DNA of 64,000 bases. It comes from Aequorivita viscosa. GTDB taxonomy: Bacteria; Bacteroidota; Bacteroidia; Flavobacteriales; Flavobacteriaceae. This document shows positions 9,171-52,169 of the stretch, in pieces. Where the stretch lies: positions 1 to 64,000 of the forward strand of contig NZ_FNNS01000015.1 in the NCBI RefSeq assembly GCF_900106795.1, given 5' to 3'. The notes beneath the pieces were generated by a model. It made no database searches and was not told the DNA's origin. It saw nothing but the letters and a program-made list of their open reading frames with translations. Positions within the stretch are counted from its first letter, which is position 1, and every line of letters begins with the position of its first letter. A program made the translations under genes and the position numbers.

Positions 9171-9269
9171 AACGTTCCCCTGGCCCCTTCCTACAATAGG
9201 CAGGCCCCAAAGGGAAAGTGAAACTACATACTGATTTATTGCCCACTGCTATTGCAACTGCCCACTAAT

Positions 9270-32192: not shown

Positions 32193-32945
32193 ATGGAAGA
32201 AAAAAAGACAAAACAGAAATACGCTTTAATAACAGGAGGTTCACGCGGTATTGGTCGTGCAATCTGTATTCAATTAGCAAAAGATTTGGATTACGGCCTT
32301 CTCATTAATTATAATGGCAATAAAGAAGCCGCCCTACAAACGCTAAACGAAGTTGAAGCTCTTGGAGGAAAAGGCGAAATAATGCAGTTTGATGTAACAA
32401 ACGCAGAAGCAGTTAATAAGGCATTTGACGTATGGCACGAAGCAAATAAAGACGCTATTATTGAAGTAATTGTAAACAATGCGGGAATTACAAAAGATGG
32501 CTTGTTTATGTGGATGAAACCCGAAGACTGGAATAGCGTAATAAATACAAGCCTAAATGGTTTTTATAACGTTACTAATGCGTTAATCCAAAAACTACTC
32601 GTCAATAAATACGGCAGGGTTATTAATATGGTCTCCGTTTCCGGATTAAAAGGAACTCCAGGGCAGGTAAACTATTCAGCTGCAAAAGGTGCGGTTATTG
32701 GTGCCACAAAAGCGTTAGCCCAAGAAGTTGCAAAGCGAAATATCACCGTAAACGCAATAGCCCCAGGTTTCATAAAAAGTGATATGACAGCAGATTTAGA
32801 CGAAAAAGAACTTAAAAAAATGATCCCTGCCAATCGTTTTGGTGAAGCTGAAGAAGTGGCTCATGCGGTTAGTTTTTTAGCATCGCATAAGGCTTCGTAT
32901 ATAACTGGTGAAGTAATTAATATTAACGGAGGAATTTATTCTTAA
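32193..32945 (+). CDS. 3-oxoacyl-ACP reductase of the pigment pathway (FabG-type SDR)
   Basis: A 250-residue short-chain dehydrogenase. The NADPH-binding TGGSRGIG (residues 14-21), NNAG (95-98) and the catalytic Ser, Tyr161 and Lys165 (NYSAAKGAV) are intact. It closely follows FabG, which reduces 3-oxoacyl-ACP to 3-hydroxyacyl-ACP. Inside the pigment locus it should serve the polyene chain rather than housekeeping fatty acid synthesis. The next gene, a ketosynthase, starts 13 bases after its stop. Confidence 0.9.
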   Translation: MEEKKTKQKYALITGGSRGIGRAICIQLAKDLDYGLLINYNGNKEAALQTLNEVEALGGKGEIMQFDVTNAEAVNKAFDVWHEANKDAIIEVIVNNAGITKDGLFMWMKPEDWNSVINTSLNGFYNVTNALIQKLLVNKYGRVINMVSVSGLKGTPGQVNYSAAKGAVIGATKALAQEVAKRNITVNAIAPGFIKSDMTADLDEKELKKMIPANRFGEAEEVAHAVSFLASHKASYITGEVININGGIYS

Positions 32946-36304: not shown

Positions 36305-37437
36305 TGAAGAACGTTTACATCACTAGGATTGCGAAGTTTCTACCAAACGAGCCCGTCGAAAACGAGGAAATGGAAGAAAAACTCGGAATCATCAATGGAA
36401 AAGCATCCAAAGCTCGCCGAATTATACTTCGGAATAACCAAATTAAAACACGTTATTACGCCTTAGATAAAGAAGGCAATGTAACTCATAATAACGCACA
36501 ACTTGTAGCAAAAGCTGTAGAAGGCTTGTGTGATGATACTTTCAATAAAAGCGAAATTGAACTCCTGTCTTGTGGCACCTCAAGCCCAGATCAAATTCTG
36601 CCAAGCCATGCAGCTATGGTTCACGGCTTTTTAAAGAGCGGAAACCTTGAGGTAAACTCTCCTTCGGGTGCGTGTTGCGCAGGAATGAACGCTTTAAAAT
36701 ACGGCTATATGGCCGTAAAGTCAGATCAAGTTAAAAATGCAGTTTGTACAGGTTCAGAAAGAACTTCCTCTTGGATGAAATCTGATATTTTTGAAGATGA
36801 AGTGGCCCATTTAGAAGCAGTTGAACAACAACCAATTCTAGCTTTTAACAAAGAATTTTTACGTTGGATGCTTTCTGACGGTGCTGGAGCAGTGCTTCTA
36901 GAAAGTGAACCAAACGGAAAAACACCATTAAAAATTGAATGGATGGAAGGTTATAGCTACGCTTTTGAACTTGAAACCTGTATGTATGCGGGCGGAGAAA
37001 AATTAGAAGATGGCAACCTAAAACCGTGGAGCGAATATCCAGCAGATGTATGGGGGAAAATGTCACTTTTTGCCATGAAGCAAGATGTAAAATTACTAAG
37101 TGAAAACATCCTTAAAAAAGGTGTTGCTAGTATGAAATTGGCAATGGAGAAACACAACATCACCGAAGATGATATAGAGTACTACTTGCCTCATATTTCT
37201 TCGTATTATTTCAAAGAAAACTTATATAAAGAAATTGAAAATCAAGGACTCCATATGCCTTGGGAAAAATGGTTTTTAAATCTTCAAAAGGTTGGAAATG
37301 TTGGCGCTGGATCTATCTACCTGATGTTAGAAGAATTGATCAATTCTGGAAAACTTAAAAAAGGCGACAGAATATTCCTTCAAGTGCCCGAAAGTGCCCG
37401 ATTCGCATATTCGTACGCTTACTTAACGGTTGTTTAA
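36304..37437 (+). CDS. darB: DarB-type ketosynthase (KAS III-like)
   Basis: A 377-residue KAS III-like enzyme. The active-site Cys is C125 in SGACCAGMNALKYG; the His and Asn of the family lie in the C-terminal half (LPHISSYYF and GNVGAGSIYL). DarB joins two acyl thioesters to a cyclohexanedione, the precursor of the dialkylresorcinol half of flexirubin. It starts on the last base of the darA stop and is followed one base later by a hotdog gene. The darA-darB pair is the diagnostic marker that this is a flexirubin-type rather than a plain aryl polyene locus. Confidence 0.9.
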   Translation: MKNVYITRIAKFLPNEPVENEEMEEKLGIINGKASKARRIILRNNQIKTRYYALDKEGNVTHNNAQLVAKAVEGLCDDTFNKSEIELLSCGTSSPDQILPSHAAMVHGFLKSGNLEVNSPSGACCAGMNALKYGYMAVKSDQVKNAVCTGSERTSSWMKSDIFEDEVAHLEAVEQQPILAFNKEFLRWMLSDGAGAVLLESEPNGKTPLKIEWMEGYSYAFELETCMYAGGEKLEDGNLKPWSEYPADVWGKMSLFAMKQDVKLLSENILKKGVASMKLAMEKHNITEDDIEYYLPHISSYYFKENLYKEIENQGLHMPWEKWFLNLQKVGNVGAGSIYLMLEELINSGKLKKGDRIFLQVPESARFAYSYAYLTVV

Positions 37438-37438
37438 A

Positions 37439-37876
37439 ATGAAAGTGTTTACTGATAAAATAACGGATAAAAACTTCATCGGAAAACTAATTCCGCAAAG
37501 AACACCGTTCGTTATGGTCGATAAACTCCTTCATTTTGAAGAAAGCAAGGTGGTTGCAGGGCTAACCATTTCCGGAGATAATATATTTACGCTAAACAAT
37601 ATATTTACGGCGCCTGGCTTAATTGAACATATGGCGCAGACAGTGGCGCTTTATACGGGCTATCGGTTTTATTTAAAAGAAGAAGATGCCCCCGTAGGTT
37701 ATATAGGCGCCATAAAAAAAGCTGAAATCTTTGAGCTCCCATCAATTGGAAAAGAGCTAAAAACAACAGTAAATATACTTCACGATATAATGGGCGTTAC
37801 CTTGGTCACAGCCGAAACTGAGTGCGAAGGTAAAGTAATTGCTTCTAGTGAAATGAAAACGGTATTAGCGAACTAA
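37439..37876 (+). CDS. Hotdog-fold dehydratase-like protein 1 (Glu kept, His absent)
   Basis: A 145-residue protein resembling FabZ/FabA 3-hydroxyacyl-ACP dehydratases: IPQRTPFVMVDKL near residue 18 and APGLIEHMAQT near 58. In FabZ the active site is a His in GHFP and a Glu in the following helix. Here E63 is present but the GHFP stretch is replaced by NIFTLNN without His. The frame extends to a TTG at 37430; ATG 37439 is preferred. It overlaps the next, related gene by one base. It probably works as part of a mixed dimer. Confidence 0.8.
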   Translation: MKVFTDKITDKNFIGKLIPQRTPFVMVDKLLHFEESKVVAGLTISGDNIFTLNNIFTAPGLIEHMAQTVALYTGYRFYLKEEDAPVGYIGAIKKAEIFELPSIGKELKTTVNILHDIMGVTLVTAETECEGKVIASSEMKTVLAN

Positions 37877-38334
37877 TGAAGTCTTCCGATATTTCAAATA
37901 TTGACATTTCAAACTTTCTCCCGCACCGAAATCCGATGTTGATGGTTAGCTCGGTATTGGAAATAGATGAAAATTCCGTTGCCACAAACTTTCAAATCGC
38001 AGATACGTGTATTTTCTTAAAAAATAAAAACCTGTCGGAGGCTGGACTTATCGAAAATGCCGCTCAAACCGCTTCTGGAGTAGTTGGGCAGACTTTTTTT
38101 GATAAGAATGACGTGGAAGGAACAGGAAACAAATTAGTTGGTTACATAAGTGCAATTAAAAGAATTGAAATTTTTCAATTACCTAAAGTAGATGAAACTA
38201 TCGTAACAAAAGCAAAACTCCTTTCAAGGTTTGATACTGGCGAAATGACAATGTGTAGTTTTGAAACAGAAACATTTCTCGATGAAAAATTAATTGTATC
38301 TTCTACTATGAATTTTTTAATCCATGAGGTCTGA
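37876..38334 (+). CDS. Hotdog-fold dehydratase-like protein 2 (Glu kept, His absent)
   Basis: A 152-residue paralog of the preceding protein: FLPHRNPMLMVSSV near residue 14 and AGLIENAAQTASG near 56. E60 occupies the catalytic Glu position, but the GHFP His is again missing (TCIFLKN). It starts on the last A of the previous stop (TAATG), and the next gene follows after 2 bases. It is likely part of the dehydratase set for the polyene double bonds, with a partner that supplies the His. Confidence 0.8.
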   Translation: MKSSDISNIDISNFLPHRNPMLMVSSVLEIDENSVATNFQIADTCIFLKNKNLSEAGLIENAAQTASGVVGQTFFDKNDVEGTGNKLVGYISAIKRIEIFQLPKVDETIVTKAKLLSRFDTGEMTMCSFETETFLDEKLIVSSTMNFLIHEV

Positions 38335-38336
38335 TT

Positions 38337-38735
38337 ATGAAGAAGAAAGAAGTACCCCAAGATAAAAGTAATCTAGAATCGGCAAATTTCCGCGAACTCT
38401 GCTATGCAGTAGATGAAGACGGAAAATACACTACTGCAAATAGCAGTGGTTGGGAGCCAAAAACAGTTGCCTTAAACAATGCTATTGAGGAAATCAATGA
38501 GCGAATAGAAGATGCAAAAAACCGAGTGCAAAAAGGTGAAACGAGCCCAATTGAATATTGCATGGAACTCCATAAAATGGATGTTGGTATTTTAGCAAGC
38601 TATGTTGGCCTTTGGCAATGGCGGGTTAAAAGACATTTTAAACCTGCTGTTTTTAAAAAATTGAATAATAAAACCTTGCAGAAATACGCCGACGTTTTTG
38701 AGATATCAGTAGATAAATTAAAAAAGTTAGAATAA
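38337..38735 (+). CDS. Conserved hypothetical protein of the flexirubin locus
   Basis: A 132-residue soluble protein without signal or membrane segments. It has WEPKTVALNNAIEEINERIEDAKNRV, a coiled-coil-like helix, a central SYVGLWQWRVKRHF stretch and a C-terminal helix pair (LQKYADVFEISVDKLKKL) that resembles the end of a Cro/XRE-type helix-turn-helix. It contains no known catalytic motif. It follows the hotdog gene by two bases and so belongs to the same transcript. A regulatory or scaffold role is possible but unsupported. The 165-base gap after it contains no gene. Confidence 0.7.
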   Translation: MKKKEVPQDKSNLESANFRELCYAVDEDGKYTTANSSGWEPKTVALNNAIEEINERIEDAKNRVQKGETSPIEYCMELHKMDVGILASYVGLWQWRVKRHFKPAVFKKLNNKTLQKYADVFEISVDKLKKLE

Positions 38736-38900
38736 CTCACCTGCTGCTCGTTCGGAATTCACTAGTGATTCTAGTTGGAACCGGAATTACCTTTAAATCG
38801 AATAATTTAAAAGCCTTTTTAAAAAACTGAAAATAAATTATCCTAGTCCTAAAGTGCTCGAAACATATCATTTCAAGGGTTGGGGATAAAAAAATAAATC

Positions 38901-39908
38901 TTGAAAGAAGAAACCATAATTAACTTCACCCACCATCAAGCTGCCCACTGCGAAAACGGTGTAGTTTCAAATTTGATGAAACACAACGGTTTTAGCGTCA
39001 GCGAACCCATGGTTTTTGGTATCGGTAGCGGCTTGTTGTTTTGTTATATTCCATTTCTAAAAGTAAATCACGCGCCTGTATTTACATATCGTGCTATGCC
39101 TGGTTTAATTTTTAAAAAATTCGCCAAGCGTACAGGAGTAAAAATGAAGCGCGAAAAATTCAGCAACCCTAAAGATGCCAAAGCAAGGTTGGATGAAAAC
39201 CTTAAAAAGAACAATCCTGTTGGTTTGCAAGTTGGAGTTTATAATCTACTATACTTTCCTGATGAATATCGTTTCCACTTTAATGCCCACAACATGGTGG
39301 TTTACGGAAAACAAGGAGATCGTTATTTAATAAGCGACCCTGTAATGGAAGAAGTTACTTCGCTTTCAGATAAAGAGCTCGAAAAAGTGCGTTTTGCAAA
39401 AGGAGCGTTCGCCCCAAAAGGTCATATGTATTATCCAGTTTCATTTCCAGAAAAGCTTGAGTTTGAAAAAGCTATTGTAAAAGGAATTAAGGATACGTGT
39501 AAAACGATGTTGGCTCCCATTCCTATAGTTGGTGTAAACGGAATACACACAACAGCAGGAATGATACGCAAATGGCCAAAGAAAAAAGACGTTAAAACAG
39601 CAAACCATTATTTAGGTCAAGTAGTGCGAATGCAAGAAGAAATAGGAACTGGCGGCGGCGGATTCCGATATATTTATGCTGCTTTTCTTCAAGAGTCTGC
39701 CAAATTATTAAATAATGAAAAGCTGAATGAACTTTCAAAAGAAATGACCGAAATTGGCGATTTATGGCGCGATTTTGCCGTAGAAGCATCAAGAATTTAT
39801 AAAAATAGAAGTGCAAAAACTGATAGCTACAATAAAGTAGCTGACCAATTAGACTATATAGCCGATCTGGAAAAAGTGTTTTTTAAAAAGCTGAAAAAGG
39901 CAGTTTAA
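38901..39908 (+). CDS. BtrH N-terminal-domain protein (DUF4872 type)
   Basis: A 335-residue cytoplasmic protein with a BtrH-type domain: THHQAAHCENGVVSNLM at residues 10-26 with Cys17 as the likely nucleophile of a papain-like fold, and FNAHNMVVYGKQGDRYLISDP near 130-150 with the matching His and Asp. In butirosin synthesis BtrH transfers an acyl group from an acyl carrier protein to an amine. Here it could move an acyl chain from ACP to an acceptor. The start is TTG at 38901: a TAA codon two codons upstream closes the frame and the next ATG would remove the Cys motif. Confidence 0.75.
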   Translation: MKEETIINFTHHQAAHCENGVVSNLMKHNGFSVSEPMVFGIGSGLLFCYIPFLKVNHAPVFTYRAMPGLIFKKFAKRTGVKMKREKFSNPKDAKARLDENLKKNNPVGLQVGVYNLLYFPDEYRFHFNAHNMVVYGKQGDRYLISDPVMEEVTSLSDKELEKVRFAKGAFAPKGHMYYPVSFPEKLEFEKAIVKGIKDTCKTMLAPIPIVGVNGIHTTAGMIRKWPKKKDVKTANHYLGQVVRMQEEIGTGGGGFRYIYAAFLQESAKLLNNEKLNELSKEMTEIGDLWRDFAVEASRIYKNRSAKTDSYNKVADQLDYIADLEKVFFKKLKKAV

Positions 39909-39963
39909 AAAGTTAATTAGATATAATGGTATAAGTCCCCATTGGGGGGCTTTAGGGGGATAA

Positions 39964-40707
39964 ATGATACAGATAAACCAACTTTCAAAAAAATACAAAG
40001 GGGCCGAATTTTTTTCGGTTAAAGACCTTAGTTTGAAGATTGAAACTGGTGAAATTTATGGTTTGTTAGGCCCAAACGGAGCAGGAAAAACAACGCTTAT
40101 CTCGATGTTGACCTCACTGTTAAAACCAACTTCTGGATCTTTTACAATAAACGGACTTAATTTCAAAGAGAATAAAAATCAATTAAAACAATTAATCGGA
40201 ATTGTCCCGCAGGAATATGCGCTTTATCCAACACTTACTGCTTTTGAAAACTTAGAATATTTCGGAAGTATGTATGGATTAAAAGGCGAAATTTTAAAAA
40301 ATTCCATTCTTGAACATCTAGAAATTATGGGGCTTTCAAAATTCGCTACTAAGAAAACCGCAACATTTTCGGGAGGAATGAAGCGCCGTGTAAACCTAAT
40401 AGCTGGAATTCTTCATCAACCCAAAGTGTTATTCCTAGATGAACCTACCGTGGGCGTCGACGTACAATCCAAAAACGTTATTATTGACCACTTAAAGTTT
40501 TTAAACCAACAGGGAACTACAATTGTGTACACCTCTCATCATTTAATTGAAGCTGAGGTTTTCTGCACTCGCGTGGCAATAATCGACCAAGGTGAAATTA
40601 TAATAAAAGGCATCCCTTCAGAACTTATAAAAACTCAGGCAGGCGCCAATAATCTTGAAGACGTATTTTTAGCACAAACAGGAAAAGCCCTTCGCGATTA
40701 TGCATAA
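39964..40707 (+). CDS. ABC transporter ATP-binding protein
   Basis: A 247-residue ABC ATPase. Walker A GPNGAGKTT (about residues 38-46), Q-loop VPQEY, signature FSGGMKRR and Walker B VLFLDEPT are intact, followed by the switch His in YTSHHL. It pairs with the permease gene that starts 8 bases before its stop, forming an ABC-2 type exporter. Its position in the pigment locus suggests export of the pigment or a precursor across the inner membrane. Confidence 0.9.
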   Translation: MIQINQLSKKYKGAEFFSVKDLSLKIETGEIYGLLGPNGAGKTTLISMLTSLLKPTSGSFTINGLNFKENKNQLKQLIGIVPQEYALYPTLTAFENLEYFGSMYGLKGEILKNSILEHLEIMGLSKFATKKTATFSGGMKRRVNLIAGILHQPKVLFLDEPTVGVDVQSKNVIIDHLKFLNQQGTTIVYTSHHLIEAEVFCTRVAIIDQGEIIIKGIPSELIKTQAGANNLEDVFLAQTGKALRDYA

Positions 40708-41968
40708 ACTTTGGGCTTCAACATATAAGGAAATGCTCCTGTTAATCCGCGATTTGGGGGGGATAGCAATTCTTTTCATTATGCCCATGTTGTTGCTAAT
40801 CGTTATTACACTCGTTCAAGACAGCACGTTTAAAACGATAAACGATGTGAAGATTCCAGTTTTGTTAGTTGATAATGACAATGGCGAAGTTTCAAAAAAC
40901 ATTATTGATAACCTTTCAGAATCCAATTCATTCGAAATTCTTCAAAAAAACACCGAAGACGAAGCAAAAGAGGCTGTTTTTGCAGGAAAATATCAATTGG
41001 CAATTATAATTCCAGAAAACCTATCTGCATCACTTCAGAAAAAAGTAAATCAAAATGTAGAAGGGATTTTATCAAAATTCGGATTAGAAGAGGATAACTC
41101 ATTAGTTGAAAAAGAAGCAATCCCTGCAAAGGAAGTGAGATTGTACTTTGACCCCGCAACGCAACTAAGCTTTAAGTCGTCGGTTAAAAACGGAATCGAT
41201 AAAATGATTTCAAAAATCGAAACCCAAAGCATTTACAAAGCTTTTCAAACAGAATTAGGTGAAGAAGAAGCCGTGCCTATTTTCGATACAGAAAATTTCA
41301 TTTCTTTTAAAGAAGTTCGCCAAACAAAAGGTAACCAAGAAATTATTCCAAATTCAGCCCAGCACAATGTCCCGGCCTGGGCGCTTTTTGCTATTTTCTT
41401 TATTGTCGTGCCGCTCTCTATTAATTTGGTGAAAGAAAAAAATCAAGGAACCTTCGTTCGTCTGCGAACGCAACCAGTTAATTACGCAACTGTTTTGGGC
41501 GGAAAAACAATCGTTTATTTAGTGGTTTGCCTGATACAATTTACGTTAATGCTCCTTGTTGGAATCTTTCTTTTTCCAGCAATCGGACTCCCACAACTTG
41601 ATGTTTCCGGTAAATTACCGATGCTTTATGCTGTGGCTCTTTTTTCAGGATTGGCGGCAATTGGTCTGGGGTTACTTTTAGGAACAATTGCAAAAACTCA
41701 AGAGCAATCAGCGCCTTTTGGAGCAATAATGGTTGTTATTTTAGCAGCACTTGGCGGGGTTTGGGTGCCTGTTTTTGTAATGCCGAAATTAATGCAATCT
41801 ATTTCAAAAATATCACCAATGAATTGGGGATTGGAAGCGTTTTATGATGTGTTCTTAAGAAATGTGAATTTTGTTAAAATCCTTCCTGAAATTTCGTTAT
41901 TATTGTTATTCTTCATTATAACAATTTTAATAGCAATAATTTATAATCAAAAGAAGAATGCCGTCTAA
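40700..41968 (+). CDS. ABC-2 type transporter permease
   Basis: A 422-residue permease of the ABC-2 family. One N-terminal membrane helix (about 18-38) is followed by a long extracytoplasmic part (about 40-225) and five C-terminal helices (about 228-420), the usual YhhJ/NatB-like layout. It overlaps the ATPase gene by 8 bases and the thioesterase gene by 11 bases, so it is firmly part of the same transcript. The substrate is unknown. Confidence 0.88.
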   Translation: MHKLWASTYKEMLLLIRDLGGIAILFIMPMLLLIVITLVQDSTFKTINDVKIPVLLVDNDNGEVSKNIIDNLSESNSFEILQKNTEDEAKEAVFAGKYQLAIIIPENLSASLQKKVNQNVEGILSKFGLEEDNSLVEKEAIPAKEVRLYFDPATQLSFKSSVKNGIDKMISKIETQSIYKAFQTELGEEEAVPIFDTENFISFKEVRQTKGNQEIIPNSAQHNVPAWALFAIFFIVVPLSINLVKEKNQGTFVRLRTQPVNYATVLGGKTIVYLVVCLIQFTLMLLVGIFLFPAIGLPQLDVSGKLPMLYAVALFSGLAAIGLGLLLGTIAKTQEQSAPFGAIMVVILAALGGVWVPVFVMPKLMQSISKISPMNWGLEAFYDVFLRNVNFVKILPEISLLLLFFIITILIAIIYNQKKNAV

Positions 41969-42386
41969 TAACAATAATGAAATAAGCTTTACTTCCGAAA
42001 TACGTGTTCGCTTCACAGAAACCGATCCATTGGGAATTGTGTGGCATGGCAATTACATTCAATATTTTGAAGATGGTAGGGAAGCATTTGGGCGAGAGCA
42101 CGGCATTTCCTATTTAGAGCAGAAAGCAAATGGCTATACATCACCAATTGTAAGGTCTACCTGCGAACACAAACTGCCTCTGCGTTATGGCGATGTGGCA
42201 ACCATTAAAACTACTTTTATAGATTCCCCAGCGGCAAAATTGATATTCCGATATCGAATTTTTGATCCCAAAGGAAGAGTAGCCTGTTTGGGCGAAACCA
42301 TTCAAGTGTTTTTAAATGACGAAGGTGAACTTTCATTGACTCAACCAGAGTTTTTTGCAAAATGGAAACAGAAAATGGGATTGTAA
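41958..42386 (+). CDS. Acyl-ACP/CoA thioesterase (YbgC/4-hydroxybenzoyl-CoA thioesterase-like)
   Basis: A 142-residue hotdog thioesterase. The catalytic motif VRFTETDPLGIVWHGNYIQYFEDGR (read in two parts around residues 17-41) contains D23 and H30 of the family, so unlike the other hotdog proteins here it looks catalytically complete. It could release a polyene or aryl acid from its carrier or remove wrong intermediates. It overlaps the permease by 11 bases and ends 2 bases before the next ketosynthase start. Confidence 0.85.
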   Translation: MPSNNNNEISFTSEIRVRFTETDPLGIVWHGNYIQYFEDGREAFGREHGISYLEQKANGYTSPIVRSTCEHKLPLRYGDVATIKTTFIDSPAAKLIFRYRIFDPKGRVACLGETIQVFLNDEGELSLTQPEFFAKWKQKMGL

Positions 42387-42388
42387 AA

Positions 42389-43546
42389 ATGACTAAAACC
42401 TTCCTTTCATATAATAATATTTTCAGCAGCCTAGGCCTTGATAGCGAAACGGTAATTGAAAATATGTTACAAGGGAAAACAGGGCTTAAAAAATACGAAG
42501 ACACTTCACTTTTGCCCGTTCCATTTTGCGCTTCACGGGTTTCTTCCGAAACAGTAAACGAACAGTTCAACAAAATTGCAGGCGCTTCAAAGTTCACCAA
42601 GTTAGAGAAGATGCTGATTGCTTCGTTGAATGAGGTTGTTAAAGCTTCAAATATTTCTTTAAATGAAAAAGTTGGGCTTATTATCTCTACCACAAAAGGA
42701 AATATAGATGTGCTTGAAAAGAATAGCGGTTTCCCCGAAAGTCGCGCTTACTTAAGTGAATTAGGCAAAACAATTCAAAACTTTTTCGGTTTTAAAAATG
42801 AAGCCATTGTACTTTCAAACGCTTGTATTTCTGGTGTTTTAGCAATCTCTGTAGCAAAGCGGTTTATTTCGGAAGGAAAATACGATCACGTTTTTATTAC
42901 TAGTGGCGATTTGGTTTCAAAATTTATTCTTTCTGGTTTTAACTCTTTCCAAGCACTATCTGATGAACCTTGCAAACCGTATGACAAAAACCGAGTAGGA
43001 ATTAACCTGGGAGAAGTGGCGGCGAGCGTTTTGGTTACTTCAGAAGAAAATAAACTATCAACTGAAGCTATAGAAATTCTAGGTGATTCAACCTGTAATG
43101 ATGCAAATCATATTTCGGGCCCATCCCGAACTGGGGAAGGTCTTTATAGAAGTATAAAAGCTGCTTTAAATGAAGCAAATTTAACTGCCTCACAAATCGA
43201 TTATATTTCTGCCCATGGCACTGCCACCTTGTTTAATGATGAAATGGAAGCGATAGCCTTTAATCGATTGGGGATGGAAAAAGTTCCACTCAATAGTTTA
43301 AAAGGATATTTTGGGCATACTTTGGGCGCTTCAGGACTTTTGGAAACCATTGTGGGAATGCATTTTATGGAACGAAATGTTTTATTTTATTCAAAAGGAT
43401 TTTCCGACCTTGGTGTCTCAAAAGAAATTAATGTTATTAAAGAAAATGAGTCGAAAAAACTTCATATTTTTTTAAAAACTGCTTCAGGTTTTGGAGGCTG
43501 TAACTCGGCGGTTATTTTTAAAAAACAAACAACTAACCTAAAATAA
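42389..43546 (+). CDS. Beta-ketoacyl-ACP synthase (second ketosynthase of the locus)
   Basis: A 385-residue FabF/FabB-like ketosynthase with an intact triad: C146 in LSNACISGVLA, His in SAHGTATLFNDE and His in GYFGHTLGASG. The N-terminal strand is less conserved than in housekeeping FabF. ATG 42389 is chosen over an ATG at 42362 that lies inside the thioesterase gene. The methyltransferase starts directly after its stop. It may extend the chain or form a heterodimer with one of the ketosynthase-like proteins further on. Confidence 0.88.
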   Translation: MTKTFLSYNNIFSSLGLDSETVIENMLQGKTGLKKYEDTSLLPVPFCASRVSSETVNEQFNKIAGASKFTKLEKMLIASLNEVVKASNISLNEKVGLIISTTKGNIDVLEKNSGFPESRAYLSELGKTIQNFFGFKNEAIVLSNACISGVLAISVAKRFISEGKYDHVFITSGDLVSKFILSGFNSFQALSDEPCKPYDKNRVGINLGEVAASVLVTSEENKLSTEAIEILGDSTCNDANHISGPSRTGEGLYRSIKAALNEANLTASQIDYISAHGTATLFNDEMEAIAFNRLGMEKVPLNSLKGYFGHTLGASGLLETIVGMHFMERNVLFYSKGFSDLGVSKEINVIKENESKKLHIFLKTASGFGGCNSAVIFKKQTTNLK

Positions 43547-44614
43547 ATGCAAAAAATAACCAAAAATATAAACGCCATTGAAGCTCTGGAGGAAGCGCAT
43601 CGAATTGCTTTTGCGCCCTTTGTTTTTCAGGCTTCGGTAGCGCTCCGTAGACTCGGTATCCTCGATTATATTTTCGATAATCGCGATAATGGCGGGCCAA
43701 CTGTCGCAGAAATTTCCAAAGCACTTTCAGTGAGTGAATACGGCGTTGGAGTTTTATTGGAAATTGCGCAGACCTCAAATATTGTGAGCAAAAGCGAAGC
43801 TGAAAAATATGAACTAACTAAGGTTGGCTATTTTCTAAATTACAATAAAACCGCAAGCGTAAACCTTAATTTTACACACGATGTATGTTATAAAGGGCTG
43901 TTTCATTTAAACGACTCCATTAAAAATGGAAAACCAGAAGGCCTAAAAGAACTAGGCCAATGGTCTACTATTTATGAAGGTCTTTCGCAATTAAAACCAG
44001 ACGAACAAAAAGCTTGGTTCGACTTCGACCATCATTATTCCGATGATATTTTTGACGAAGCACTTGAACACATTTTTAAAAACAGACCGAAAACACTTTT
44101 TGATATTGGTGGCAACACAGGGAAGTTTTCTATAAAAGCCTGTAGTTTTAATGAAGATGTAAATGTGACCATAATCGATTTGCCTGGTCAACTTAAAATG
44201 GCATTGGAAAATGCAGATCAAAACGGTTTTAAAAATAGAATTAAAGCATATCCAATAAATTGGCTTTCCGAAAATCCAACAATTCCAGAGGGTGCAGATG
44301 TTATTTGGATGTGCCAATTTTTAGACTGTTTTTCTGAAGAAGAGATTTTGAAGGTTTTGACCACGTGTGCAGAATCTATGGACGAAAATGCCGAATTGAT
44401 TATAGTCGAAACCTTTACCGATAGACAGGCCTTTAAGGCTTCTCAGTTTATTTTAGAGGCAACATCGCTATATTTTACAGTCTTAGCCAACGGAAACAGT
44501 AAAATGTACCCTGCCAGTGTTTTTCTTAAACTTATCGATAAAGCTGGTTTGGAATTGAACAAAGACGTCCAATTAGGCGATTATCACACCATGTTGGTTT
44601 GTAAAAAGAAATAA
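43547..44614 (+). CDS. SAM-dependent O-methyltransferase
   Basis: A 355-residue methyltransferase of the plant-OMT / PF00891 type, with an N-terminal winged-helix dimerisation domain (about 15-100) and a Rossmann SAM-binding domain: LFDIGGNTGKFS near residue 188, IIDLPGQL near 207 and VIWMCQFLDCFS near 255. Members methylate phenolic or other hydroxyls of aromatic substrates. Candidate targets here are the aryl head group or the resorcinol. It starts immediately after the preceding ketosynthase stop, with no gap. Confidence 0.87.
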   Translation: MQKITKNINAIEALEEAHRIAFAPFVFQASVALRRLGILDYIFDNRDNGGPTVAEISKALSVSEYGVGVLLEIAQTSNIVSKSEAEKYELTKVGYFLNYNKTASVNLNFTHDVCYKGLFHLNDSIKNGKPEGLKELGQWSTIYEGLSQLKPDEQKAWFDFDHHYSDDIFDEALEHIFKNRPKTLFDIGGNTGKFSIKACSFNEDVNVTIIDLPGQLKMALENADQNGFKNRIKAYPINWLSENPTIPEGADVIWMCQFLDCFSEEEILKVLTTCAESMDENAELIIVETFTDRQAFKASQFILEATSLYFTVLANGNSKMYPASVFLKLIDKAGLELNKDVQLGDYHTMLVCKKK

Positions 44615-44664
44615 CGATTACCCGCGTATCAGATTTATAAAGAATTTCAATTTTATAATCGATT

Positions 44665-45282
44665 TTGAATAAAGAGTTTAAAATAAGTAGCTATTCCCAC
44701 ATTAAAAACCAAACTGTTTCAGTCAATGGTAATGTGCTTTTTACGGATGATTCCGAAGACTTCACAACATTTATAAAAGCTGCTTATAAGTTTTTAGACA
44801 CAGGTTATTCCAAGTTTTTTAAAATGGATAATCTTAGTAAATTGGCATTTTTAGCAGCCGACGTTTTGCTGAAACAAGAAGATTTAAATGAAGATGAAAA
44901 CAATATAGCCCTTATATTTTCAAACAAAGCATCTAGTCTCGATACAGATCGAAAGCATCAAGCCACTATTAAAAACGATGCCGAATATTTCCCCAGTCCG
45001 GCCATTTTTGTCTACACCTTGCCAAATATTTGTTTGGGTGAGATAAGTATTAAACACAAACTTTATTCTGAGAATAGTTTTTTTATCTTTGACCGCTTCA
45101 ATCCCGAGCATTTACAACTGTATGCCAACAGTTTATTGCGAAGTGAAAAATCCGAAAAAGTATTGTGCGGATGGGTCGATATAGAAGAAAATATTTACGA
45201 AGCTTTTCTTTATTTAGTTGAAAGCAATGGCGAGATTGAACATAACACGGAAGAAATAATTAGATTATATAAAATATTATGA
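44665..45282 (+). CDS. Ketosynthase N-terminal-like protein (PF13723 type), no catalytic residues
   Basis: A 205-residue protein similar to the short ketosynthase N-terminal-like family found in aryl polyene loci. It has NNIALIFSNKASSLDTD near residue 84 and FPSPAIFVYTLPNICLGEISI near 109, which match the core strands of a ketosynthase, but not the Cys or His motifs or the C-terminal half. It should be an accessory or structural subunit. The start is TTG at 44665: a TAA lies three codons upstream and the next ATG is deep in the protein. It overlaps the next ACP gene by four bases (ATGA). Confidence 0.75.
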   Translation: MNKEFKISSYSHIKNQTVSVNGNVLFTDDSEDFTTFIKAAYKFLDTGYSKFFKMDNLSKLAFLAADVLLKQEDLNEDENNIALIFSNKASSLDTDRKHQATIKNDAEYFPSPAIFVYTLPNICLGEISIKHKLYSENSFFIFDRFNPEHLQLYANSLLRSEKSEKVLCGWVDIEENIYEAFLYLVESNGEIEHNTEEIIRLYKIL

Positions 45283-45536
45283 GCGAATTAAAAGAAGAAC
45301 TAAAGGCAAAAATAATAGAACAACTAAATCTTGAAGACGTTTCAGTAGCAGAAATTGCTGACGACGACCCACTTTTTGGCGATGGTCTTGGCCTAGATTC
45401 TATTGATGCATTGGAGCTTATCGTAATGCTCGACAAAGATTACGGTATTCGTTTAAGCGACCCAAAAGAAGGACGTAAAATTTTTGAATCTGTAGAAGTA
45501 ATGGCGAGTTATATTGAAGAACATCGCACGAAGTAA
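45279..45536 (+). CDS. Acyl carrier protein 2 of the pigment pathway
   Basis: An 85-residue acidic acyl carrier protein, with the phosphopantetheine site S41 in GLDSIDALELI. It overlaps the preceding gene by the ATGA junction. Two distinct ACPs in the locus (the other at 34181) agree with two chemistries, polyene elongation and resorcinol acyl supply, though which ACP serves which is not visible. A hairpin of the CCTGCAAGG family follows it. Confidence 0.92.
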   Translation: MSELKEELKAKIIEQLNLEDVSVAEIADDDPLFGDGLGLDSIDALELIVMLDKDYGIRLSDPKEGRKIFESVEVMASYIEEHRTK

Positions 45537-45544
45537 TTTTTATC

Positions 45545-45603
45545 GACCTGCAAGGTGTCATTTTCTTTTTGCGGAACATAAAAAGAAAATCTCCTTGTAT
45601 GTC
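45545..45603. repeat. Palindromic intergenic repeat, CCTGCAAGG family, copy B
   Basis: Outer arms GACCTGCAAGG and CCTTGTATGTC pair with one mismatch, and inside them ATTTTCTTTTT pairs perfectly with AAAAAGAAAAT. The whole 59-base element folds into one long hairpin between the ACP gene and the next ketosynthase. It ends 17 bases before that start codon. Confidence 0.7.
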
Positions 45604-45620
45604 TTACTCCCAAATGTAAT

Positions 45621-46823
45621 ATGAACAAAGGCGTAGCCATAACCGGAATGGGTATTATTTCTGCCATTGGAAACAATGTGGCCGAAAACTATGATGCGCT
45701 CATAAACGAAAAGAAAGGAATTACTCGGGTAGATAATATTGAAACTATTCAGCGGGATGAAATAATGGTTGGTGAAATAAAGCACATTAATGCCGAATTA
45801 ATCGCGCAACTAAATCTTCCGCCAGAAAACAACTATTCCCGTACTGCGATGCTAGGGGTTATTGCGGCAAAAGAAGCCATAAATAGCGCGCACATTACCA
45901 ATATTAAAAAGTATAAAACAGGAATTGTTTCCGGGACTAGTGTTGGTGGAATGGATATGACCGAGAAATATTACTACGAATATCTTACCGAAAAAGAACC
46001 TCAAAAATATATAGAAAGTCACCACGCTGGCGATTCTACTCAAAAAATTGCCGAACAGTTGGGCATAGAAGAAAGTTTAGTAACTACCATAAGCACCGCT
46101 TGTTCTTCGGCAGCCAATGCAATCATGTTGGGTGCGCGACTAATTAAATCAGGAAAGCTCGATAGAGTAGTGGTGGGTGGAGCCGATTGCCTTTCAAAAT
46201 TCACCATCAACGGGTTTAAAACCTTGATGATTTTAAGCGATACCTATAACACACCTTTTGACGAAAATAGAAAGGGATTAAACCTTGGTGAAGCTGCAGC
46301 ATATCTTGTTCTAGAAAGTGATAAGGTAGTAAAAGCTGAAAACAAAAAAGTACTTGCCTACGTAAAAGGCTATGGAAATGCAAACGATGCTTTTCATCAA
46401 ACAGCTTCCTCAGAGAATGGTGATGGTGCAACATTGGCAATGGAAAAAGCCTTGAAGGTTGCTAATTTAAAACCTTCTGATATAGATTACATAAACGTCC
46501 ACGGAACAGCTACTGGCAATAACGACCTTTCAGAAGGAAGGGCAATACTTCGAATATTTGGTAATGAAATGCCAGAATTTAGTTCCACAAAGGCATACAC
46601 AGGTCACACTTTGGCAGCTGCAGGAGCGATTGAGGCGGTCTATTCAATTTTAGCCTTACAGCACAATGTAATTTTCCCAAATCTGAATTTTAAAACACCG
46701 ATGAAGGAATTTTCGATGATACCGCAAACAAAATTAAAGAAAAAGGAATTGAAAACTGTGCTTTCAAATTCACTTGGGTTTGGTGGAAATTGCTCAACCG
46801 TAATATTTTCAAAAGAAGCATAA
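45621..46823 (+). CDS. Beta-ketoacyl-ACP synthase (third ketosynthase of the locus)
   Basis: A 400-residue FabF-type ketosynthase with a complete triad: C161 in STACSSAANAIMLG, His in NVHGTATGNNDL and His in KAYTGHTLAAAGA. The N-terminal strand GVAITGMGIISAIGNN is typical. Its stop overlaps the start of the next gene (TAATG), which is a ketosynthase-like protein without catalytic residues. That arrangement is what is seen for a ketosynthase and chain-length-factor pair in type II polyketide systems, so the two probably form a heterodimer. Confidence 0.92.
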   Translation: MNKGVAITGMGIISAIGNNVAENYDALINEKKGITRVDNIETIQRDEIMVGEIKHINAELIAQLNLPPENNYSRTAMLGVIAAKEAINSAHITNIKKYKTGIVSGTSVGGMDMTEKYYYEYLTEKEPQKYIESHHAGDSTQKIAEQLGIEESLVTTISTACSSAANAIMLGARLIKSGKLDRVVVGGADCLSKFTINGFKTLMILSDTYNTPFDENRKGLNLGEAAAYLVLESDKVVKAENKKVLAYVKGYGNANDAFHQTASSENGDGATLAMEKALKVANLKPSDIDYINVHGTATGNNDLSEGRAILRIFGNEMPEFSSTKAYTGHTLAAAGAIEAVYSILALQHNVIFPNLNFKTPMKEFSMIPQTKLKKKELKTVLSNSLGFGGNCSTVIFSKEA

Positions 46824-47887
46824 TGAAAAGGGTTTACATAAATAGTATGGCTTCAATTTCGTCACAGAAAACCTTTGAGAATACTGAATTCTTAGATACA
46901 ATAATAGAATATAGTGAGCCTGTTATTTTTGCTCATGACCCAGACTATAAACAATATATTGCACCAGCCGCAGCGCGAAGAATGGCAAAAGGCATAAAAA
47001 TGGGCGTAGTAGCTTCCAAAATAGCTATGGATGAAGCCAAAATCGAAACCGTAGACGCTATTATCACCGGAACGGGGATGGGCTGTATGATAGATTCTGA
47101 AAAGTTCGTAAGTGCGATTATTGATAATAACGAACAATATTTAACGCCTACTTCTTTTATTCAAAGTACACACAACACAGTTGCAGGGCAAATAGCTTTA
47201 GGGATGGAGTGCAAGGCTTACAACTTTACTTACGTACATTCCGCAATTTCGTTTGAATCGGCGCTGCTAGACGCTAAAATGCAGTTAGAAAATGATGAGG
47301 CCAAAAATATTTTAGTAGGAGGGGTCGAGGAATTGGGCGAACATACCACAAAAGTCCACAAGGCTATTAACCATATAAAACCAACTTCCGTTTCACTTTC
47401 AGAAATGTTAAAATCAAACACACAAGGAGCTGTTTTTAGTGAAGGTGCTAATTTCTTTGTGGTTTCAAATGAAAAACTTCAAAATTGTTATGCAGAACTA
47501 ATCGCCGTTGAGACATTTAACACGCTTCAAAAAGAAAAAGTTTCTGAAACAATTGAAAGCTTTTTGCAGCAAAACAACGTACAATTAGCAGATATAGATT
47601 TAGTGGTTTTAGGAAATAATGGCGATGTGGATTTTGATGGTTTTTACAATCAACTTTCCGACGCTATTTTTAAAAACACCCAACAAGTTTATTACAAACA
47701 TTTGGTTGGAGAAAACAATACAGTCTCCGCATTTGGAGTTTGGTTAGCCTCTAAAATGTTAAAAACACAAACAATTCCTGAAATTGTAAAAATTAACGAT
47801 ACTAATCTTTCAGAGATAAAAACCATTTTGTGTTATAACCAATATCGCGGTCAAAATCACAGCTTTGTACTTCTGAAAAAATGTTGA
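46823..47887 (+). CDS. Catalytically inactive ketosynthase-like protein (chain-length-factor-like)
   Basis: A 354-residue protein with the ketosynthase fold in which all three active-site positions have changed. The Cys motif reads TYVHSAISFESALLDA, the first His region LVVLGNNGDVD, and the second HLVGENNTVSAFG, so no Cys-His-His triad remains. It starts on the last base of the preceding ketosynthase stop; ATG 46823 is preferred over an upstream ATG inside that gene. By analogy with type II polyketide systems, including the ApeO/ApeC pair of aryl polyene synthesis, it should set chain length in a heterodimer. Confidence 0.85.
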   Translation: MKRVYINSMASISSQKTFENTEFLDTIIEYSEPVIFAHDPDYKQYIAPAAARRMAKGIKMGVVASKIAMDEAKIETVDAIITGTGMGCMIDSEKFVSAIIDNNEQYLTPTSFIQSTHNTVAGQIALGMECKAYNFTYVHSAISFESALLDAKMQLENDEAKNILVGGVEELGEHTTKVHKAINHIKPTSVSLSEMLKSNTQGAVFSEGANFFVVSNEKLQNCYAELIAVETFNTLQKEKVSETIESFLQQNNVQLADIDLVVLGNNGDVDFDGFYNQLSDAIFKNTQQVYYKHLVGENNTVSAFGVWLASKMLKTQTIPEIVKINDTNLSEIKTILCYNQYRGQNHSFVLLKKC

Positions 47888-48657
47888 AATTCTACACCAT
47901 AAACGCCTTGGCATTAGTGGTTTTTTGCGGATTACTACTTACAGGTTTTTTGGGAAATGTTCCAGTTTGGCTATATGTGGTCTTTATAATTATTTGGATT
48001 GTAATTACCGCTATCGGCTCTTTTCAAATTAGGTTAAATTATCACCTTCAGTCTTTTAACCACAATTATAAAACATCAGGAAATTACATATCAATAACTT
48101 TTGACGACGGTCCAAATCCAGAATTTACGCCTAAAGTTTTATCACTTCTCAACGATCACAACGCAAAAGCCACCTTCTTTTTAATTGGTAAAAAAGCCGA
48201 AAAACACCCAAACCTAGTACAACAGATTATTGCAGAAGGTCACACAATCGGGAATCACTCATATTCTCACACCAATAATTTTGGTTTTTTTTCTTCTCAA
48301 AAAGTTACTGATGAGTTGAAGCAAACCAATTCAATTTTAAAACAAATTACAGGAAAAGAAATCAAAATGTTTCGTCCGCCTTTTGGAGTAACCAACCCAA
48401 ATATTAAAAAGGCATTGAAGAGTACAAGACATTTTTCAATCGGCTGGAGTAAACGTAGCCTAGACACGACAAACCTTTCTGGTGAAAAAATTTTAAAACG
48501 CATAACTTCTGAATTAAAAAGAGGTGATATTATTCTACTCCACGACAGCAGTGATAAATCCGTTGCTGTATTGGAACAGTTATTGTTAACTTTAACTCCG
48601 CACAAATTGCAGTCGGTTCCCGTAGATCGTTTGCTCGAAATTGAAGCTTATGCGTAA
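47881..48657 (+). CDS. Membrane-anchored polysaccharide deacetylase-like protein
   Basis: A 258-residue NodB-homology protein with two hydrophobic segments at the N-terminus (about 8-50), so anchored with its domain probably in the periplasm. Catalytic motifs are intact: ITFDDGPNPE, GNHSYSH, RPPFG and LLHDSS. In a pigment locus the substrate is unlikely to be a sugar with certainty; a hydrolase acting on an acetylated or acylated intermediate is an option. It overlaps the genes on both sides (7 bases upstream, 8 downstream). Confidence 0.83.
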   Translation: MLKFYTINALALVVFCGLLLTGFLGNVPVWLYVVFIIIWIVITAIGSFQIRLNYHLQSFNHNYKTSGNYISITFDDGPNPEFTPKVLSLLNDHNAKATFFLIGKKAEKHPNLVQQIIAEGHTIGNHSYSHTNNFGFFSSQKVTDELKQTNSILKQITGKEIKMFRPPFGVTNPNIKKALKSTRHFSIGWSKRSLDTTNLSGEKILKRITSELKRGDIILLHDSSDKSVAVLEQLLLTLTPHKLQSVPVDRLLEIEAYA

Positions 48658-49279
48658 TTACTTCTTATTGTTATTTCTTGTTTTCATTGGGAGCTCAATC
48701 CAAGCTCAGGATGCCGTAATGCATGCTTCCGAAACTGCTACTTTTAAAGAAAAAGTGATCACTTCAGCAAAAGCCACTCAAACCATTAAATCAGATTTTG
48801 TACAGTATAAACATTTAGATTTTTTGTCAGAAGATGTAAAAACATCAGGCAAAATGGTCGTTAAAGCACCAAATCTGGTAAAATGGGAATATACCAATCC
48901 GTACCAATACAGTGTGATTTTCAAGGAAGACAAATTGCTTATTAACGACGGAGGAACAAAAAGCAAGGTCGATATCGGTAACAGTGAACTCTTCAAAAAG
49001 CTAAATCAATTAATTGTAAATAGCGTGAAGGGGAATATGTTTAACGATGCCGATTTTACGGTTTCTTTTTACAAATCTTCAAAATATAACAAAGCGGTTT
49101 TTGTTCCGAAAGACCCGAAAATAGCGAAGTACATAGCATCTTTTGAACTGCTTTTTAACAAAGATGACGCACAAGTTTATGAGGTTAAAATGGTGGAGCC
49201 GTCGCAAGATTTTACAAGAATAATTTTTACCAATCGAATTTTAAACAGCACAATTAATGATTCGGTTTTTAATAATTAG
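48650..49279 (+). CDS. LolA-like outer-membrane lipoprotein carrier protein
   Basis: A 209-residue periplasmic protein with a signal peptide ending SSIQAQ. The body matches LolA-family carriers (IKSDFVQYKHLDFLSEDVKTSG, VKWEYTNPYQYSVIF, LINDGG), which form a half-barrel that binds acyl chains. Locus-specific LolA homologs are typical of aryl polyene clusters and may carry the lipid-like pigment from the inner to the outer membrane. The ATG at 48650 is chosen over a TTG at 48641. It overlaps the following lipoprotein gene by 23 bases. Confidence 0.85.
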   Translation: MRNYFLLLFLVFIGSSIQAQDAVMHASETATFKEKVITSAKATQTIKSDFVQYKHLDFLSEDVKTSGKMVVKAPNLVKWEYTNPYQYSVIFKEDKLLINDGGTKSKVDIGNSELFKKLNQLIVNSVKGNMFNDADFTVSFYKSSKYNKAVFVPKDPKIAKYIASFELLFNKDDAQVYEVKMVEPSQDFTRIIFTNRILNSTINDSVFNN

Positions 49280-49880
49280 TGCTCTCTCAATTGTTTTTCT
49301 AACTTCTTGCGCTTTAAAGACTACAGAAGGTCTAAGGCAGGTCGATTTCATTAAGGTTGAAGTTGAAAACCCTTATTTCTCAAACCCTGAAATTGACTAT
49401 GTTTACAAGGCAAAAATTGAAGTTTACAATAAAAACTTTGGCGGAATTCTTATCATAAAAAAAACGGGAATTAAAACCCACAGAGTTGTTTTTACTACTG
49501 AATTTGGAAGTAAATTATTCGATTTTAAGTTCGAAGGAGATGATTTTACGAAGAACTTCGTGGTTGAAGATTTAGACAGAAAGTTTATTATCAATATCTT
49601 AAGAGATGATTTTAAGTTATTGATAAATGAAAAAGCGAATGTTTTAATGGCTTATGAGTCTGACAATCAGAGCGTATTTAAAACCAAGTCTGATAAAAGA
49701 TATAATTTTTACTTTTTAGATAAAGAAACTGAAAAGCTGTCTAAAATTGTCAATACCTCAAAAACCAAAGAAAAGGTTGAAATTGCCTATACAGCAATCG
49801 AAGAAAATATTGCAGACATCATCAGCATTAAACACAACAATATCAAGTTAAGAATAGACTTGGAAAAATTCAAAAAATGA
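49257..49880 (+). CDS. Lipoprotein of the pigment locus
   Basis: A 207-residue protein with a lipobox (VFLTSC, lipidation at C18), so probably outer-membrane attached. The rest is beta-rich with many charged residues and matches no enzyme family I recognise. Aryl polyene loci often encode a small lipoprotein beside LolA, which could act like LolB as acceptor at the outer membrane. It overlaps the LolA-like gene by 23 bases and is followed 4 bases later by the third hotdog gene. Confidence 0.75.
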   Translation: MIRFLIISALSIVFLTSCALKTTEGLRQVDFIKVEVENPYFSNPEIDYVYKAKIEVYNKNFGGILIIKKTGIKTHRVVFTTEFGSKLFDFKFEGDDFTKNFVVEDLDRKFIINILRDDFKLLINEKANVLMAYESDNQSVFKTKSDKRYNFYFLDKETEKLSKIVNTSKTKEKVEIAYTAIEENIADIISIKHNNIKLRIDLEKFKK

Positions 49881-49884
49881 TAAT

Positions 49885-50253
49885 ATGCTCATAGAAGGAT
49901 TATATGAAGTTATCGCAAACGAAAACACCGAAAAAGGTATTTTGGCGAAAGTACATTTGCACAAGGATCACGAAATTTTTAAAGGCCACTTTCCTGGAAA
50001 CCCAGTAATGCCAGGTGTTTGTATGATTCAAATGATTAAGGAACTCACTGAGGAAGCCACTGGAAAGGATTTGTTTTTAGCAGTTTCATCTAACATAAAA
50101 TTTATGGCGATCATTAATCCTGAAAAAAATCCAGATTTGCAGCTAGCTATTGATATCACAGAAGAAAAGGGTGAAGTAAAAGTGAAGAACACAACATCTT
50201 TTGACGACACCGTTGCGCTGAAACTAAGTGCAACTTTTAAAGTAATTGATTAA
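49885..50253 (+). CDS. Hotdog-fold dehydratase-like protein 3 (His kept, Glu changed to Gln)
   Basis: A 122-residue FabZ-like protein. It has the full GHFPGNPVMPGV motif with the catalytic H35, but the helix position that carries Glu in FabZ is Q49 (CMIQMIKE). It is therefore the mirror image of the hotdog proteins at 37439 and 37876, which keep Glu and lack His. FabZ active sites combine residues of two subunits, so a mixed dimer could rebuild a complete site. It is the last gene before a strong hairpin. Confidence 0.82.
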   Translation: MLIEGLYEVIANENTEKGILAKVHLHKDHEIFKGHFPGNPVMPGVCMIQMIKELTEEATGKDLFLAVSSNIKFMAIINPEKNPDLQLAIDITEEKGEVKVKNTTSFDDTVALKLSATFKVID

Positions 50254-50975: not shown

Positions 50976-52169
50976 ATGAACCAAAATCTACTTTCAGAAA
51001 ACTTCGAAATCCTGAAGTGTTGTGTGATTATTCCTACTTACAATAATCACAAAACGTTGCGACAGGTTATTGAAGGTGTTTTGGTTTATACTAAAAATGT
51101 TATCGTTGTTAATGATGGCTCTTCGGATTCCACTTCAGAAATTTTATTGCAGTTTCCGCAAATACAGCAAATTCACATTTCAAAAAATAAAGGAAAGGGC
51201 AACGCACTCCGTCAGGGATTTAAACACGCTGAAAGTTTAGGCTATGATTACGCCATTACAATAGACAGCGATGGGCAGCACTTTCCAGAAGATATTCCAG
51301 TTTTTATTGAAGCGTTAGAAACCAGCGAAAATAAAAAACTCCTTCTTATTGGCGCGCGAAATATGGGACAAGAAGGAGTCCCGAAAAAAAGCAGCTTTGG
51401 AAATAAATTTTCAAACTTTTGGTTTTGGGTTGAAACAGGAACGCGTTTGCAGGATACCCAATCGGGCTTCAGGTTATATCCAATTGCAGCAATGAAAAAT
51501 TTGCGCTTTTACACCAATAAATTTGAATTTGAAATTGAAGCCATCGTAAAAGCAGCTTGGAGCGAAATCGAAGTGAAAAATATTCCAATTAAAATTCATT
51601 ACGAATTGGAAAACAGAGTGTCACATTTCCGGCCTTTTAAAGATTTCACCCGAATAAGTATCTTGAATACTTGGTTAGTTATTATCACATTTCTCTATAT
51701 AAAACCCAGAAACCTTTTCAGAAAACTAAAAAAAAAAGGACTTAAAAGGTTTTTAAAGGAAGATCTGCTTCACAGCAACGATTCTGCTGAAAAAAAAGCA
51801 TTTTCAATCGCTCTTGGAGTATTTATCGGCTTGTCTCCAATTTGGGGTTTTCATACGGTTTCTGTAATTTTTATGGCACTACTTTTCAGGTTGAATAAAG
51901 TCATTGCTTTCGCTTTTTCAAATGTTAGTTTGCCTCCATTTATACCTTTTATACTCTATTTCAGTTTAAAATTAGGAGGTTGGATTTTAGGCGAAAACTT
52001 CGTGCTTTCAATGAACGAAATAGATCCAAGTTTAGAGCTAGTGAAATATTTAAAATCTTATATTGTTGGCAGTTTGGCGCTTTCTGTTTCTGCAGCGATT
52101 ATTTGCGGACTTTCGGGCTACTTAATCTTAACGTTGTTTGAACGTAAAAAGATTTTCAACAATGGGTAA
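50976..52169 (+). CDS. Family 2 glycosyltransferase fused to DUF2062
   Basis: A 397-residue protein. The N-terminal GT2 domain (about 10-235) has CCVIIPTYNNHKTL, VVNDGSSDST and TIDSDGQHFPED with the DxD-type motif. The C-terminal DUF2062 domain (about 255-390) has three membrane helices: AFSIALGVFIGLSPIWGFHT, then two more. The same fusion occurs in aryl polyene loci, where it may glycosylate or otherwise modify the product or its lipid anchor at the inner membrane. It overlaps the next gene by 8 bases. Confidence 0.88.
   Translation: MNQNLLSENFEILKCCVIIPTYNNHKTLRQVIEGVLVYTKNVIVVNDGSSDSTSEILLQFPQIQQIHISKNKGKGNALRQGFKHAESLGYDYAITIDSDGQHFPEDIPVFIEALETSENKKLLLIGARNMGQEGVPKKSSFGNKFSNFWFWVETGTRLQDTQSGFRLYPIAAMKNLRFYTNKFEFEIEAIVKAAWSEIEVKNIPIKIHYELENRVSHFRPFKDFTRISILNTWLVIITFLYIKPRNLFRKLKKKGLKRFLKEDLLHSNDSAEKKAFSIALGVFIGLSPIWGFHTVSVIFMALLFRLNKVIAFAFSNVSLPPFIPFILYFSLKLGGWILGENFVLSMNEIDPSLELVKYLKSYIVGSLALSVSAAIICGLSGYLILTLFERKKIFNNG

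Follow-up and report, generated by a model that had tools for sequence, protein, structure and literature searches.

A putative split-site hotdog dehydratase of the ApeI:ApeP kind, with a second candidate Glu partner, in the flexirubin cluster of Aequorivita viscosa

The window, i.e., the whole 64,000-nucleotide stretch of Aequorivita viscosa DNA that was analysed, holds a flexirubin cluster (aryl polyene plus dialkylresorcinol, DAR), and its FlxA, FlxB, DarB, DarG, and DarH proteins all exceeded the curated NCBIfam cut-offs (Table 1). This analysis concerns three hotdog proteins of the cluster, P0001, P0002, and P0003, whose open reading frames (ORFs) were all found where the preliminary description had placed them. 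The ORFs of P0001 and P0002 share one base. We call these proteins divergent homologues that would work like the dehydratase ApeI:ApeP, and they are named here ApeP1 (P0001), ApeP2 (P0002), and ApeI type or ApeI (P0003).

Alignment with the LpxC-FabZ protein of the same genome placed E63 of ApeP1, E60 of ApeP2, and Q49 of ApeI in the Glu column. The GHFP His was H35 in ApeI and was missing in ApeP1 and ApeP2, which have a shorter loop at this place, so the FabZ-type arrangement with His and Glu within one chain was found in none of the three. The conservation of this split was followed in the best 80 of at least 524 confirmed loci, ranked by similarity to the beta-ketoacyl synthase KS2 of the window; this sample is biased toward close relatives, and its counts take in the window. 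The closest named relatives of KS2 were on Aequorivita contigs (81, 80, and 79% identity for the best three among the 80 listed). All 79 ApeP1-type and all 71 ApeP2-type proteins (one of the latter truncated) kept the Glu and had no GHFP motif, while both His and Gln were present in 75 of 75 ApeI-type proteins. Invariant positions are few in these families (16 in ApeP1, 9 in ApeP2, and 18 in ApeI), and the alignments indicate that the split is conserved beyond chance. Three residues of the helix (E, A, and Q), which correspond to E81, A84, and Q85 of this genome's FabZ fragment, were invariant in 79 ApeP1, 70 ApeP2, and 35 single ApeP proteins. Thus, the preliminary description was right that the two paralogs keep the Glu and lack the GHFP His, that the third protein has GHFP with H35 and a Gln at the Glu position, and that no protein of the three has both residues. 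Supply of the missing residue from within the same chain, the alternative named there, was looked for in the alignments and is rejected on them, as GHFP was absent from the 79 + 71 ApeP-type proteins and none of the 75 ApeI-type proteins had a Glu in its column.

The split was also followed in 198 genomes of the class, where ORF counts refer to the matches listed, identical sequences were taken only once, and matches to long LpxC-FabZ frames were excluded. All 47 ORFs of ApeP1 or ApeP2 type kept the Glu and lacked GHFP in that stretch, and the His was kept in 42 of 42 ApeI-type ORFs, whose Glu column held Q in 33, E in 4, R in 2, K in 2, and H in 1. A short-loop His, which is not the GHFP His, was seen in 2 of the 47 ApeP-type ORFs (that of G030 and the ApeP2-type ORF of G194). 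Both types were present in 40 of the 44 genomes with either, a count that includes G146, which shares an identical ApeP with G176. Only the ApeP type was obtained from G054 and G196, and only the ApeI type from G050 and G151; completeness was 60% for G196 and 78% for G151, and G050 has an unextracted ApeP fragment at a contig end.

Some other hotdog proteins were considered and set aside. A PF07977 search of the window's genome gave three matches, namely LpxC-FabZ, a complete His + Glu protein on contig C52, and ApeI itself. The C52 protein was rejected as the missing half because it carries both residues and is located elsewhere in the genome, and the protein at 41958-42386 of the window belongs to a 4HBT thioesterase-type family. 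As a separate observation, ApeP and ApeI genes adjoin at two loci (L130 and L131, in G107 and G139) where the ApeI-type protein has both His and Glu and no KS3 or chain-length factor (CLF) match was found within the fetched stretch; these loci are possibly of a different cluster type or in an older state. The Glu was also kept in the ApeI-type proteins of G131 and G162.

The two kinds of protein matched the two chains of PDB entry 6QSR (ApeI:ApeP), a structure that we take to be that of Grammbitter et al. 2019. ApeP1 matched chain B (E 1.5e-4), ApeI matched chain A (E 0.0039 alone and 1.6e-6 as a profile), and the best PDB hit of the ApeP2 family profile was again chain B (E 2.8e-5). In chain A, GHFP is present and an Asp takes the position of the ApeI Gln, and chain B keeps the Glu. 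With lax thresholds, ApeI-like or ApeP-like Pfam matches were obtained for 19 of 38 ApeI-type proteins (E 0.001), 8 of 38 ApeP2-type proteins, and 2 of 43 ApeP1-type proteins (E 0.01). The equivalog cut-offs of NCBIfam for FabZ (113 and 155.15 bits) were missed by all three, with best scores of 41.9 (ApeP1), 24.5 (ApeP2), and 37.4 bits (ApeI). AlphaFold2 monomers of ApeI (mean predicted local distance difference test, pLDDT, 93.5) and ApeP2 (88.5) were hotdog folds with FabZ chains as top fold matches, the first of which for the ApeI model was 9a6k_B, from an entry whose title describes a YcsD-FabZ model.

Taken together, we consider it likely, with a probability of roughly 0.8, that ApeI and ApeP1 are the halves of a heterodimeric 3-hydroxyacyl-acyl carrier protein (ACP) dehydratase of the flexirubin polyene synthase, and that ApeP2 is a second Glu half which arose by tandem duplication and could build a second site with ApeI. 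In such a dimer, ApeI would give the His (H35) and ApeP1 the Glu (E63) of one working site, and the other site would be dead, as Q49 of ApeI would lie opposite a chain without the His. The working site would dehydrate the 3-hydroxyacyl-ACP in each polyene cycle, and the second site formed by ApeP2 with the same ApeI would consist of H35 and E60. The residues, their conservation, the homology to both chains of 6QSR, the gene linkage, and the purifying selection are shown here, and the physical pairing and the dehydration are our inference.

The second Glu partner looks to be the new element of this locus. ApeP1 and ApeP2 are 35% identical, and the five ApeP2-type proteins fell into one clade (100/100) with a long stem of 1.62 when a tree was built from 47 ApeP-type proteins. 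Tandem ApeP genes occurred at 5 of 18 class-level loci (G194, G021, G024, G065, and G101), and the second copy of G024 lies at the same place, yet it had no placement in the tree. When the window was compared with Aequorivita relatives, the ratio of nonsynonymous to synonymous substitution (dN/dS) was 0.07-0.12 for ApeP2 (6 of 6 pairs), 0.03-0.07 for ApeP1 (5 of 6), and 0.04-0.06 for ApeI (4 of 5), where the remaining pairs were saturated and all values are near saturation. ApeP2 is a distinct paralogue under purifying selection. Eight differences between ApeP1 and ApeP2 were fixed when the truncated copy was dropped (79 versus 70 sequences): Q20/H17, V25/L22, A70/S67, T73/V70, G90/S92, I113/L115, T121/C127, and K140/N146.

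ApeP2 occurred together with the DAR genes. Both ApeP2 and DarB were present at 69 of the 80 loci. Among the other 11, one (L151) was on an uninformative 4-kb contig. For the other ten, the search was extended to the complete genome, and in nine of these neither DarB (at E 1e-30) nor an intact ApeP2 was found. The tenth (L152, G389 C1:606334-608344) has a split cluster, with DarB and the ApeP1-ApeP2 pair apart from KS2 and ApeI. At one locus of the nine, L159 (positions 8465-9380, in the metagenome-assembled genome, MAG, Flavobacteriaceae SI039_bin41), DarB was absent, DarA was a short fragment, and ApeP2 was truncated, while the ApeP1, ApeI, and ketosynthase genes looked intact; here ApeP2 and the resorcinol genes have been lost together in nature. 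In a sample of 196 genomes of the order, ApeP2 (E 1e-30 or better) was found in 34, DarB (over its curated cut-off) in 34, and both in 33. The order sample also included DarB without ApeP2 in G307, 0.36 Mb from a single ApeP. In G279 (C1:3280889-3282020), DarB was split in two and contained one in-frame TGA, and the adjoining ApeP2 was open. A flexirubin cluster of flavobacterial type, with a DarB 61% identical to that of the window, was also seen in a record titled as a Bifidobacterium breve MAG (L211), which is probably a mislabelled or contaminated bin.

Because the second Glu partner occurs with the DAR genes, the idea of two Glu partners for one His protein, already put forward in the preliminary description as two chain-specific dehydratases, takes a sharper form. 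We tentatively suggest, as a possibility that we would not bet on, that one His subunit is common to two Glu subunits and yields two pathway-specific dehydratases, one (ApeI-ApeP1) serving the aryl polyene and the other (ApeI-ApeP2) serving the 2-enoyl thioester condensed by DarB, with specificity set by swapping the half without the His. A separate role of ApeI-ApeP2 for the dialkylresorcinol half is what we infer from the gene linkage. Among the papers listed by searches of the open-licence literature, none was recognised that describes, for flexirubin, a split site or an additional ApeP.

However, several results weigh against the heterodimer reading or its resorcinol part. The E-values to 6QSR were modest, FabZ entries matched ApeP1 and ApeI equally well or better, and the ApeP1 profile ranked 6qsr_B only 14 of 18 (7.6e-5), below several FabZ entries. 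6qsr_B itself has a short-loop His, 8 residues before the Glu, compared with 14 in FabZ. ApeI reached 26.3 bits against the Pfam ApeI-like (PF22818) cut-off of 28.5, short by 2.2 bits, and ApeP1 and ApeP2 passed no Pfam cut-off (a sub-threshold FabA match for ApeP1, none for ApeP2) and had no ApeP-like (PF22817) match, although these cut-offs are detection thresholds and not a biological feature. The 50 fold matches listed for the ApeI model, and likewise those for the ApeP2 model, did not include 6QSR, and comparison of the ApeI and ApeP1 family profiles gave no match (E 0.39). A mirror-tree analysis of 17 cluster genes at 62 loci spoke neither for nor against the pairing, as the ranks among 136 pairs were 9 for ApeP2-ApeI, 22 for ApeP1-ApeI, and 39 for ApeP1-ApeP2, and those of the control pairs KS3-CLF and ABC-ABCp were 26 and 28. 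The Glu was still present in 4 of the 42 class-wide ApeI-type ORFs (38 were without it). As for the link to the resorcinol genes, a phylogenetic sign test gave five independent pairs on well-supported branches, of which two or three agreed and none opposed, so few events that the result was not significant; it scored L151 and L152 as lacking both (the DAR genes of L152 are elsewhere) and the truncated copy of L159 as present. The ApeP2-DarB link is thus weak as independent evolution, and in many of the genomes where DarB is missing, the entire cluster may be missing too. The DAR clusters of G193, G020, G030, and G114 have a single ApeP, and the dar genes of Azoarcus as listed in a passage of PMC3949708 include no dehydratase.

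The single-ApeP clusters also bear on another way of dividing the work, in which ApeI-ApeP2 would be a second polyene dehydratase with the same split site, serving another chain length or stage and required for making the polyene that becomes attached to the resorcinol. The Glu kept in 71 of 71 ApeP2-type proteins and the fixed differences around the central helix fit such an enzyme, and co-occurrence with DarB would follow if ApeP2 were needed only for esterified pigments, but the DAR clusters with one ApeP stand against it. By itself this explanation is doubtful, and a chain-length division is nearly as likely as the resorcinol role of ApeP2. It is unlikely, though still worth weighing, that ApeP2 is mainly structural, sitting in an oligomer with ApeP1 or in a mixed one without a catalytic role of its own. 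ApeP2 is more divergent than the other two when invariant positions are counted (9 of 152, with one truncated row), which would agree with this, as would its stem of 1.62. Against it stand E60, A63, and Q64, helix positions shared with FabZ that were invariant in a 38-sequence alignment, and the dN/dS of about 0.07-0.12.

Two explanations do away with the split site. ApeI could work as a homodimer in which the Gln replaces the Glu, with the ApeP proteins as accessories; the Gln is invariant in 75 of 75 proteins, and some class-wide relatives have a Glu there (4 of 42 among the matches listed), but the Glu of the ApeP proteins never varies either and two chains make up the entry of the solved relative, so we regard this as improbable. 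Slightly more improbable still, the three proteins might not be dehydratases at all but, e.g., hotdog decarboxylases or thioesterases, for which AmcE offers a precedent, being a hotdog protein with the conserved His that is described in a passage of PMC10698177 as a decarboxylase in cispentacin biosynthesis. Against this stand the context of a reducing polyene cluster, where dehydratases are expected (as stated in passages of PMC3992019), and the nearest solved relatives, which are dehydratases.

The features of the locus are collected in Table 1. An AMP-binding protein is also encoded in the cluster, and two small ORFs were called ACP by eye. Two further proteins were noticed. A 205-residue protein at 44665-45282 had no Pfam match, and its strongly conserved stretches (around SPA-FVYTLPNI--GEI) occurred in 13 of 13 sequences, the window included. 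The protein at 31000-32133, between FlxA and FlxB, which we take to be WG-repeat-like, had a match with 54% identity in L159, also located between FlxA and FlxB. The name DarA is likewise our assumption, made from the position adjoining DarB.

Table 1 Features of the flexirubin cluster in the window
Feature	Coordinates	Strand	Basis
FlxA, tyrosine ammonia-lyase of flexirubin biosynthesis	29412..30938	+	NF053541 897.1 bits, cut-off 700
FlxB, ketoreductase	32193..32945	+	NF053542 416 bits, cut-off 340
DarA (presumed)	35387..36304	+	no Pfam or NCBIfam match; named for its position next to DarB
DarB, dialkylresorcinol ketosynthase	36304..37437	+	NF053539 669.4 bits, cut-off 550
ApeP1 (P0001), candidate Glu-bearing hotdog half, E63, without GHFP His	37439..37876	+	residues, alignments
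ApeP2 (P0002), candidate second Glu-bearing hotdog half, E60, without GHFP His, co-occurs with DarB	37876..38334	+	
DarG	38337..38735	+	NF053545 215.1 bits, cut-off 170
DarH, BtrH-related acyltransferase	38901..39908	+	NF053550 517.2 bits, cut-off 300; PF14399
KS2, beta-ketoacyl synthase, query for the 80 loci	42362..43546	+	
KS3, beta-ketoacyl synthase	45621..46823	+	
Chain-length-factor-like protein	46814..47887	+	weak ketosynthase matches; active-site Cys missing by eye
LolA-like protein	48641..49279	+	PF03548
ApeI type (P0003), candidate hotdog half with the His (H35); Glu position occupied by Gln (Q49)	49885..50253	+	
MMPL exporter with acyltransferase domain	52138..55860	+	PF03176, PF01553

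The split-site ApeI:ApeP reading, together with a second ApeP linked to the resorcinol genes, would give a testable assignment of the flexirubin hotdog genes. If one subunit is indeed common to two specificity partners, a change of partner would be a simple retargeting of a type II polyketide dehydratase.

Among known systems, the hotdog fold is shared by FabZ and by the YcsD-FabZ complex of Bacillus type (PDB 9a6k, whose title names two different proteins), but FabZ, as in this genome, carries both the His and the Glu on the same chain. In the flexirubin cluster of Chitinophaga pinensis, FlxF and FlxS are presumably of the ApeP and ApeI types. They are named as dehydratases for flexirubin polyene formation, with dehydration assigned only to “a dehydratase (FlxF, FlxS)”, and the passages on them say nothing of a split site or of another ApeP (PMC3992019). 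The Azoarcus arcuflavin clusters likewise have two genes annotated as dehydratase, arcI and arcS, in a polyene-resorcinol pathway, a likeness of annotation, in the Table 1 passage of PMC3949708 that describes them. The closest parallel is ApeI:ApeP (6QSR), where the His is on the ApeI chain, the Glu is on the ApeP chain, and the genes lie in a type II polyene cluster; the locus of the window also lies within an aryl polyene type II polyketide cluster. The homology is only remote, the ApeI position has Gln here and Asp there, and the window has two ApeP genes per one ApeI. Aryl-polyene dehydratases ApeI/ApeP are described, in the passage on them in PMC8041823, as heterodimers that have just one active site. 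So the earlier proposal that a mixed dimer would restore one His/Glu site is right in kind and well supported by homology, while it is not new for the family, and the mixed dimer of the window would be of this already-known ApeI:ApeP kind.

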